NCBI GenBank assembly: GCA_022844565.1
Contig: JALHLK010000041.1
Location: 1 to 43,831 of the forward strand
Source of the DNA: Saprospiraceae bacterium
GTDB lineage: Bacteria > Bacteroidota > Bacteroidia > Chitinophagales > Saprospiraceae
Reading direction: 5' to 3'
DNA length: 43,831 nucleotides
Positions 41,403 to 43,831 of the stretch are shown here, in pieces. Each line of letters starts with the position of its first letter. The first letter of the stretch is position 1. The position numbers and the translations under genes were made by a program. The notes under the pieces were generated by a model. That model made no database searches, was not told where the DNA came from, and worked only from the letters and a program-made list of their open reading frames with translations.

Positions 41403-41447
41403 TACTTTCGCCATAAGTCAATTAATTTGACACTTATGGCAAGAGTA
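41403..41447. repeat. Palindrome 1 of the ATPase-flanking family
   Basis: Left arm TACTTTCGCCATAAGT (41403-41418), 13-nt spacer, right arm ACTTATGGCAAGAGTA (41432-41447). The arms match in 14 of 16 positions. It lies 28 nt beyond the stop of the ATPase pseudogene. Each arm read outward carries an ATG. The minus-strand frame gives MAKVQN and a stop; the plus-strand frame gives MARVTFSFLRDLVVKN and a stop. Confidence 0.8.
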
Positions 41448-41475
41448 ACATTTTCTTTTTTAAGAGACTTAGTTG

Positions 41476-42116
41476 TTAAAAATTAAGCTGATTAAATAGT
41501 ACATTGGCATCTATATGTATGTCTATCAGCATATTATATTTGCTATTTGTTAATCCATTTGCTGTAATTAATGTAAGAAATAGTTGATTTTTTGTCTTTG
41601 TAACTTCCTGAAAAATATTCCTTTTTGCTTGGAGTTTATTTACCGAATCGTCTGTCAATACATACGCACTATCATAAAATTTCATTTCACAGATATTAAT
41701 AGCATTATCTCCTCTTTCTATCAGCATGTCTATCTGGCACTCAGGTATATTATTATCTTTCTTTTTATAAAAACTTGATTCTTGAGTTAGTATTCCTGAA
41801 ATGCCGAGTGCTTGCTTTATAGCATCAATATGTATCAAGCAGATGTTCTCAAATGCATATCCTTGCCATGCCTTAACTTCTGGTGTGTTATATTTTTTTT
41901 ACCAATAATTTTTGATGTTTTTATTTTGCTCAACAAAATGTAAATAAAATAAAGTGTAAGCATCTGTAAGTCGATATAGGGTATCTCTTTCCTGCTTACC
42001 AAAGGGTAGTATAGATTGGATAAATCCTGAAGTTTATTATTAGATAAAAATCCTCTCATTCTCTTTATCTCAAAGTCTCTTCCAATGATAGAATATTCAT
42101 TCTGTACTTCTGCCAT
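41476..42116 (-). pseudogene. Degraded AAA ATPase (ATPase_2) with C-terminal DUF234-type nuclease domain
   Basis: Three remnants of one gene can be joined by changing frame. The N-terminus is MAEVQNEYSIIGRDFEIKRM (start 42116). After a junction near 42045, in another frame, comes SGFIQSILPFGKQERDTLYR and RLTDAYTLFYLHFVEQNKN. A TAA stop follows at 41899-41901 in an A8 run. In the same frame it continues with VKAWQGYAFENICLIH and a 120-residue tail to 41476. The tail carries QIDMLIERGDNAINICEMKF, a D-x13-ExK pattern of PD-(D/E)XK nucleases. The ATPase core with Walker A and B is deleted. Intact relatives are about 470 residues. The gene is dead. Palindromes sit at both ends. Confidence 0.75.
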
Positions 42117-42149
42117 AAGTCCTATTATTTGATACTTATGGCAAAGATC
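42105..42149. repeat. Palindrome 2, overlapping the ATPase start codon
   Basis: Left arm TACTTCTGCCATAAGT (42105-42120), 13-nt spacer, right arm ACTTATGGCAAAGATC (42134-42149). The minus-strand ATG of the ATPase relic (42116-42114) lies inside the left arm, so its first codons (MAEV) are part of the repeat. Confidence 0.8.
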
Positions 42150-42158
42150 CAACTTTTA

Positions 42159-42203
42159 TACTTTTGCCACAAGTTAATTTATATCATACTTATGGCAAGA
42201 GTA
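42159..42203. repeat. Palindrome 3
   Basis: Left arm TACTTTTGCCACAAGT (42159-42174), 13-nt spacer, right arm ACTTATGGCAAGAGTA (42188-42203), identical to the right arm of palindrome 1. It begins 9 nt after palindrome 2. Its left arm has GTG where the others have ATG. Confidence 0.8.
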
Positions 42204-42476
42204 CGAAATTAAATTATTTTTATAATATCAATATTTACAATGCTTTGAGTGAGTTTTACGGATTGTATTTTATAGTATTTATTGATTGATATATTTCTAT
42301 AAATCCTTCGTAAAATCCTGTCTCCCTTTTGAACCTGCTGCCGTATTAGCCAAGATTAACACACTTTGCCTTTATCAAAAGCAACTCTCTAAAAGATAGC
42401 TAAGTTTTTACTCAATATTAGAATAGGTCTACTTACTTCTTGCCGTTCGAAAATCCAGCTATCTATTTTTCGACTA

Positions 42477-42857
42477 TTACATCACCATCTCACCCTCTTT
42501 CAACAAGGTACTATTTTGTATCTCTACAGAATACATTGAATTAGCAATCATCCTATTTATCAAATCTGAAATATCCACTCCATGATGTTGACAAAGAGCA
42601 GGCATCAATGATTTCTCTGGATCCATATTTGGCATAGCATTTACATCAAGTGTATAAATCGTACCATCAGCGTTCATTCTAAAATCTGTTCGAGACATAC
42701 CTTTGAGACCTAGATATTTATGCAATTTTTTGGCTTGAAACATCAATTGTGACCGAGAGTATGCTGATAATTCAGGCCCCAAAGTCGCTAATGCAAGTTT
42801 GCAACTTGCTTTCTCTATTAGTATTAACGCTTTTTTATGGTAAGGTAATAAATTATA
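42477..42857 (-). pseudogene. 3' remnant of a D-Ala-D-Ala ligase-like ATP-grasp gene
   Basis: About 126 codons of an ATP-grasp C-terminus remain. They include LALATLGPELSAYSRSQLM, GLKGMSRTDFRMNADGTIY and TLDVNAMPNMDPEKSLMPAL, where the last carries the metal-binding D-x-N-x-MPN motif. The family has 300 or more residues. The frame is closed at 42858 and holds no good start before the conserved part, so the front two-thirds, with most of the ATP site, is missing. Its stop codon is intact. The break faces the start of the lipoprotein gene at 42884, which suggests replacement of the 5' part by a rearrangement. Bases 42204-42476, downstream, hold no gene. Confidence 0.7.
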
Positions 42858-43540: not shown

Positions 43541-43752
43541 TCAATTCTGTCCAGTGACTAAAAGCCAATTGTGAATATATAGCAGTATTTTCATTGCTGA
43601 AAAAATCAAAAATTACTTTCCGTATCAAAGTATTGAATATTTATATCTAAAAATAACTCATATTTAGATATTCTTTTTTTTAATAAGGCTTTTCTAAATT
43701 AAATATTTAATAATTAACGTGAATAATGGATAAAAAAATAGCATAAAAAAGT

Positions 43753-43831
43753 GAACATAAGAAAAATATTGTATATATTAGTGGTTCAAAATCATTAAAT
43801 AATAACAAATATTAGACTTATGTTCGAGGAT
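43753..43831 (+). other. Inverted repeat and possible gene start at the window edge
   Basis: GAACATAAG (43753-43761) and CTTATGTTC (43817-43825) are inverted copies 55 nt apart. The right copy contains an ATG (43820) with an open frame (MFED) running out of the window. Whether a gene starts here cannot be judged from four codons. Bases 43541-43752 show nothing else. Confidence 0.2.

Follow-up and report, generated by a model that had tools for sequence, protein, structure and literature searches.

The palindromes that accompany a degraded ATPase-nuclease gene in a Saprospiraceae genome, like those upstream of its intact relatives, are probably (at a rough probability of 0.77) cognate operators through which the ATPase-nuclease protein represses its own promoter. 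The dyads, their position, their privacy to single genes and their covariation with a winged helix of the protein were established by sequence statistics. Binding of the protein to its own dyad is well supported, since it is strongly implied by a residue-to-base code; repression of its own gene would follow from the position of the dyads, and an oligomer is suggested by the alternating direction of the half-sites. In the proposed mechanism, the winged helix, which lies between the ATPase and the nuclease, would read the half-site: residue 279 would read base 9 (and more loosely base 10), residues 282 and 285 base 6 (Arg285 with G), and residue 307 base 11, where Lys would go with A and Arg with T. 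The gene would be repressed by an oligomer that spans the dyad and covers the promoter region. The repression would hold a potentially harmful ATP-driven nuclease at a low level, and a trigger such as phage infection may release it.

The window (the whole analysed stretch of 43,831 nucleotides, contig C41 of the genome) contains a relic of such a gene on the minus strand at 41476 to 42116, recognised by a profile match in a degraded frame. An intact gene of this kind (ATPase_2, winged helix and PD-(D/E)XK nuclease) is about 1400 nt in length, and the relic is about 640 nt. It retains the first ~20 codons, followed by a deletion that takes most of the ATPase domain together with the recognition helix, and then by the wing and the nuclease part in another frame with one internal stop. 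The remaining frame matches the PADLOC profile PDC-S27 (PDLC04984) at positions 294-473 only (E 3e-62). The surviving wing (GKQERDTLY) and the start of the nuclease part lie at 41840 to 42033 on the minus strand, with an R at reference position 307. The window holds a dead gene copy whose protein has lost the ATPase and the recognition helix, while its putative operators remain.

Three dyads belong to this relic, all given here on the minus strand. The 3′ dyad (41403 to 41447) lies 28 nt beyond the relic stop codon, has 16-nt arms with two mismatching pairs and a 13-nt spacer, and shares its arm family with both 5′ dyads. The inner 5′ dyad (42105 to 42149) also has a 13-nt spacer; its inner 9 nt are perfect, the outer arm is weaker (more than three mismatches over the 16-nt arm), and the start codon of the relic (42116-42114) lies inside one of its arms. 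The outer 5′ dyad (42159 to 42203), 54 nt from the inner one, is a 16-13-16 unit with two mismatching pairs and forms an operator-like unit upstream of the relic. The original prediction of two dyads at the 5′ end and one just past the 3′ end of a degraded ATPase-nuclease gene was therefore confirmed, and so were the 13-nt spacers. Its description of three full 16-13-16 units held for two of them only, because the unit at 42105 is sound in the inner 9 nt alone. A lone 16-13-16 dyad with up to three mismatches is not very rare: three are present in the window and 19 in 40 dinucleotide shuffles of it. What goes beyond chance is one arm shared in three copies, not each dyad alone; over 50 nt, the remaining two dyads share 76% and 84% identity with the first.

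Other repeats were noticed in the same part of the window. The last ~140 nt (43691-43831) recur at 96-100% where nine other contigs of the genome end, and are probably an insertion sequence that broke the assembly. A D-Ala-D-Ala ligase-like C-terminal fragment (PF07478) lies at 42463-42777 in a minus-strand ORF (42477-42782); it has a 93% copy at G000:C69:17310-17624, so that a duplicated gene fragment adjoins the relic. A stretch of ~60 nt at 42777-42842 has five further copies in the genome at 80-90% (twice in C82, twice in C63 and once in C23).

All 61 proteins of alignment A2 match the PADLOC model PDLC04984 (PDC-S27) at E≤1e-10. ATPase_2 was above the cut-off in all three proteins scanned, and DUF234 was found in two of the three, above the cut-off in one. 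Residues G28, R29, R30, R31, G33, K34, D108, E109, D391, E405 and K407 are invariant in the alignment. A fold search returned a Pyrococcus ATPase, plant resistosome proteins, ORC/Cdc6 and a maltose-regulation entry, with archaeal Orc1/Cdc6 ranking high (2qby, E 4.8e-8), and TnsC is among three PDB sequence matches (3e-5). These likenesses would place the family on the STAND/ORC side of the P-loop world, where assembly is controlled by the nucleotide state. A different ATPase-like gene, split over two adjacent frames at L028 1472-2986, is probably a pseudogene of another P-loop family. Counts for PDC-S27 run to thousands of genomes, 3503 in Archaea and 4562 in Bacteria (PMC12988326). That paper covers the domains, counts and phylogeny of PDC-S27; no mechanism was seen in its passages on the family, and its main text contains neither "palindrom" nor "inverted repeat"; according to the same source, most PDC candidates are without experimental validation, and the antiviral status of PDC-S27 is that of a candidate. 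PDC-S27 is also named in PMC13356809. The PADLOC candidate listing is the sole pointer to a possible role of the family in defence.

Are such palindromes common upstream of the intact relatives? The source genome (5.59 Mb) has six intact family members and three relics. Just upstream of every intact member are inverted repeats peculiar to it. The window arm itself was not found in the 3.6-kb loci of these six genes. The refuting condition named with the original prediction, intact members without such palindromes, thus applies in this genome to the exact window arm but not to palindromes of its kind, which accompany 6/6. The third relic (L254 2563-2598, G000:C83) has a dyad shortly after its 3′ end. 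Genes were then gathered from the source genome, its relatives, named genomes, phage, plasmids and viral contigs; 174 were found, five identical proteins were removed, and 169 distinct genes remained, a further listed locus (L125) giving no full-length frame. A palindrome score of at least 13 within 300 nt upstream was reached by 125/166 genes, compared with 30/164 downstream stretches, 12/161 and 10/155 distant stretches, 2/169 stretches inside genes and 0/166 shuffles. When repeated weaker dyads were included, 132/166 genes had an upstream dyad. Among 14 inspected of the 34/166 genes that fail this combined call, several show shorter or weaker repeats by eye. In an early count, arrays of two or more dyads were found upstream in 44/84 cases, downstream in 3/83 and in 0/142 controls. 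Of 45 genes fetched later, 40 had a dyad. Distant relatives on haloarchaeon and Rhizobium plasmids showed no clear dyad near the start, which, like the 34 failing genes, weighs against the operator reading. Three family genes were seen in a row on contig C3 of G018 (L188, L183 and L194; 857-6506).

Bracketing of the gene by dyads, as seen in the window, turned out to be the exception. A matching 3′ dyad is present in 12/117 genes vs 11/462 swapped flanks, or in 11/117 vs 2/462 at a stricter cut. A simple repressor does not need this 3′ dyad, which therefore counts against the operator reading.

In this PDC-S27 branch, one or more dyads of 45-50 bp stand at or just upstream of the promoter or start. 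The called dyads of 59/83 genes align ungapped on their centres with one base composition, and share a plan in which offsets from about 9 to 22 are paired, the core at 12-16 is rich in GC, the inner arm in A and the centre in T; the pairing profile is partly by construction, as dyads were picked for pairing, but the shared composition is not. In the sense of the gene, the centre has more T than A in 89/124 genes and more A than T in 30/124. Where a gene has neighbouring dyads with the same arm, these are 51-54 bp apart in 26/39 spacings, a period of about 52. Centres about 26 apart are also seen, and the direction of the half-sites switches about every 26 bp. The median distance from the nearest dyad centre to the start is 58.5 nt. 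The Bacteroidota −7 box motif, TAnnTTTG, occurs in the last 60 nt of 69/124 genes vs 16 for its reverse complement. It lies inside the dyad span in 25 genes and outside called dyads in 44, and is missing from the last 60 nt in 55; the last two counts weigh against the operator reading. In mirror-matched bins, it lies no more than 8 nt from the centre of the dyad closest to the gene in 15/124 genes in sense vs 1 in antisense, and no more than 10 nt away in 26 vs 10.

The arms are private. Among 124 genes there are 115 distinct arms; two intact members, for example, have the different arms ATAATCAGCCAAAA (L074) and CAATTTGGCTTTAA (L079). The inner 9-13-9 pattern of the window occurs with up to three mismatches at eight places in the 5.59 Mb genome, compared with one for the reversed control. 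Three of the eight are in the window, three are at a relic on contig C44, and one each is on C24 (1 mismatch) and C31 (3 mismatches). The C44 relic has kept only the 5′ end of the gene and is adjoined by several dyads of a similar arm, TGTCCATAAGT, with a 13-nt spacer. The single dyad on C24, located 3′ of another gene, resembles a terminator. The patterns of two intact genes of this genome, L025 and L022, were found genome-wide with up to two mismatches at the owner's locus only; at three mismatches, L025 has seven places elsewhere (reversed control 2) and L022 two (control 0). The arm of the family gene in phage WO lies at one site only in four WO phage records (up to two mismatches). A dispersed repeat or a terminator was rejected as the general explanation on these genome-wide pattern searches, since the arms are private and upstream. 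Selection for differing arms among paralogues of the same genome was not seen (4.38 within vs 4.33 between, of 9; p=0.70).

If nearly every gene has its own arm, which part of the protein follows it? After removal of overall identity, arm similarity correlates most with the recognition-helix stretch of the structure model, with a small partial correlation (r=0.145; best single column 0.187). I performed a mutual-information scan of 470 columns against 14 arm positions (6580 pairs, 200 permutations) with the 124 genes that have a called dyad, reduced to 99 proteins below 65% identity. Five residue-base pairs were above every permutation: 279 with base 9, 307 with base 11, 279 with base 10, 285 with base 6 and 282 with base 6. 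Residues 279, 282 and 285 are in the recognition helix, 279 at its N-terminal end, and 307 is in the wing; in the structure model (pLDDT 93.7) the covarying residues sit at the recognition helix and the wing. No residue of the nuclease domain formed a pair above every permutation among the 6580 pairs. The original prediction had the ATPase-nuclease acting on the palindrome; a part for the nuclease domain in this is not supported, as the covarying domain is the winged helix. Its broader claim stands: the palindrome belongs with the ATPase-nuclease family, and the upstream dyads and the winged-helix covariation make it most likely that the protein of the family reads it.

The pairs amount to what appears to be a natural predictive recognition code of four residues and four bases. 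At residue 279, S goes with C at base 9 (25/27), N with T (22/24), E with G (7/7) and T with C (6/7), while D goes with G or T (22/25), a loose rule. R285 goes with G6 in 21/26. At residue 307, K goes with A at base 11 in 45/53 and R with T in 27/34. In leave-one-out prediction, base 9 was right from residue 279 in 76/95 (majority 38/99), base 6 from residues 282 and 285 in 56/71 (majority 29/99) and base 11 in 78/94 (majority 59/99); base 10 was hardly better than the majority (54/95 vs 52/99).

The predictions of the code were fixed in writing before 45 new genes were fetched, whose nearest training identity was 0.50 to 0.85. Five of the 45 had no called dyad, and three of the 40 with a dyad had unpredicted residues (A, A and Q), leaving 37 for base 9. 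Base 9 was correct in 31/37 with D read as G or T (permutation mean 14.4, p≤1e-5), and in 29/37 with D read strictly as G. Several of the misses are without GC at arm positions 7-8 and look like misregistered arms, still counted in the 31/37; with GC there, 24/25 were right. G6 was found in 11/12 new genes with R285 vs 1/28 without it (p=6e-8). Base 11 was correct in 23/30 (K with A 18/22, R with T 5/8; K vs R, p=0.001). The relic of the window, which was absent from every training set, has R307, and T is found at arm position 11 in 5/6 of its arms (GCCATAA), the exception being one arm of the 42159 dyad (GCCACAA). This is as the code says, in one case only.

Shared ancestry was assessed on a tree built without the winged helix, on which at least 46 changes of base 9 are counted. 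The association was kept for residues 279, 285 and 307 (p 5e-5, 1e-6 and 1e-5) across 82 phylogenetically independent pairs. In the independent-pair scan, no column scored above 279 for base 9 or above 307 for base 11; for base 6, residue 285 ranked only third when scored as a plain residue.

It was assessed whether the gene and its palindromes also move together, as the original prediction of a mobile or self-amplifying cassette supposed. Among 36 homologue pairs with at least 70% protein identity, three are syntenic and 33 share little beyond the dyads and the gene. In none of these 33 does homology extend beyond 15 nt after the stop codon (two of the pairs include a contig that ends at that codon). 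In six close pairs (L139/L137, L139/L130, L130/L137, L115/L110, L077/L080 and L101/L118), homology runs from about 90-127 nt upstream of the start, close to the outer dyad, to 0-6 nt beyond the stop. The gene with its palindromes looks like a compact mobile unit in that the homology of close pairs stops at the dyads and the stop codon. The self-amplifying part of the claim found no support: within-genome identity reaches a maximum of 0.66 over 434 pairs of fetched genes, and the nearest neighbour is in the same genome in 15/82 only. Self-amplification was rejected on this lack of near copies within genomes. Sharp borders between genomes combined with no near copies within them suggest that the gene and its upstream dyads travel between genomes; there seems to be no sign of recent amplification within a genome.

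These observations also feed an unlikely alternative, in which a mobile element has the dyads as its termini and the protein, with its nuclease, TnsC-like ATPase and winged helix, reads its own palindromes to move the gene. Promoter control would then be secondary, as it is to movement in many transposons. The 33 of 36 pairs and the six sharp borders favour it, and so do the TnsC match, the occasional 3′ dyad, the spread of family matches (0 to 23 per genome in 40 genomes, fragments included) and the presence of members on plasmids and in phage WO. Sharp borders, however, could also stem from the loss of unselected flanks. About 90% of the genes lack a matching 3′ dyad, so matching repeats at both ends are not the rule, and no same-genome pair among the fetched genes exceeds 66% identity. 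No obvious duplicated target was seen by eye at the borders of 22 loci, and the three proteins scanned contain no strand-transfer domain. No strain-level empty site was found, and five other genomes of the same genus gave no contiguous two-flank match for the window and L025. In phage WO of wRi, the gene lies between two capsid genes, and the phage search brought up the family in one WO record only. At that site, between one and three dyads with the same arm are seen by eye in three gene-less WO records (L150 1091-1250, L151 3392-3520 and L153 3484-3560), and in wMel another mobile-element gene is also at the WO site. Loss of the gene fits these gene-less sites as well as insertion does.

A related and rather speculative idea combines the two functions: the gene would be a one-gene cassette with its own address, whose winged helix and dyad array silence the nuclease and also mark the unit for movement. 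The fused nuclease and the TnsC-like ATPase might then act like TnsA plus TnsC in one chain. If this were true, the gene-less arrays of the WO phages and C44 would be sites that the unit has left or could enter, and the possible destinations of each lineage would be set by the arm code.

The cleaved hairpin of the original prediction, taken here as palindromes that are extruded from DNA and cut by the PD-(D/E)XK domain, is improbable. The long arms, the nuclease in the same protein and the invariant D391, E405 and K407 would suit it, but covariation above the permutations is confined to the winged helix, with none in the nuclease domain, and the sense −7 box near the centre of the gene-nearest dyad speaks against it, as do loops of about 13-18 nt, which are poor for extrusion. 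That the dyads act as RNA (leader hairpins, or antitoxin RNAs in an array like those of type III toxin-antitoxin systems) is hardly credible, despite arrays with a period of about 52 that immediately precede the gene, because the arm bases follow residues of a DNA-reading fold and the arm mismatches in gene sense show no excess of G-U over A-C (40 vs 37, p=0.8; 87 vs 81 for all dyads), an indirect test of folding only. RNA structure was rejected on this lack of G-U bias, which speaks for a DNA site.

The operator reading is of a known kind. TetR, LacI and the controller proteins of restriction-modification systems are autoregulated, and their operators covary with the recognition helix. They resemble the present family in a private operator at the own promoter and in a residue-to-base code. 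In contrast to them, the reader here shares one polypeptide with a STAND/ORC-like ATPase and a nuclease, and its arm has become different in nearly every gene. Archaeal Orc1/Cdc6 proteins are likewise AAA+ proteins with a winged helix, and have boxes beside their own gene and no known nuclease; the present family differs in a promoter-proximal dyad and a nuclease, with no evidence of an origin. TnsA, whose fold is that of a PD-(D/E)XK nuclease, and the AAA+ regulator TnsC of Tn7-like transposons offer the same pair of activities. Here, however, both are in a single polypeptide, no TnsB-type transposase was seen in the three proteins scanned, and paired ends are mostly missing. REP/RAYT systems also combine palindromes with an adjacent gene, the product of which may be their reader, but the patterns studied here are not dispersed over the genome (three patterns in the source genome, and one in four WO records), and no Y1 transposase domain was found in the three proteins scanned. 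PDC-S27 itself is an ATPase fused to a PD-(D/E)XK domain; most of the ATPase part is gone from the relic.

No description of these palindromes was recognised in searches of the open PMC library. Autoregulators with covarying operators are known; what would be new, in that none was found in the literature searched, is a candidate-defence ATPase-nuclease family with a predicted private and readable operator for each gene. This branch of PDC-S27 would be a testable DNA-binding system in which much of the target site may be readable from the protein sequence. With one base changing so often on the tree (at least 46 times), it would also be a clean natural case of rapid co-evolution of a reader and its site, and solo palindromes may be explained as footprints of lost genes.
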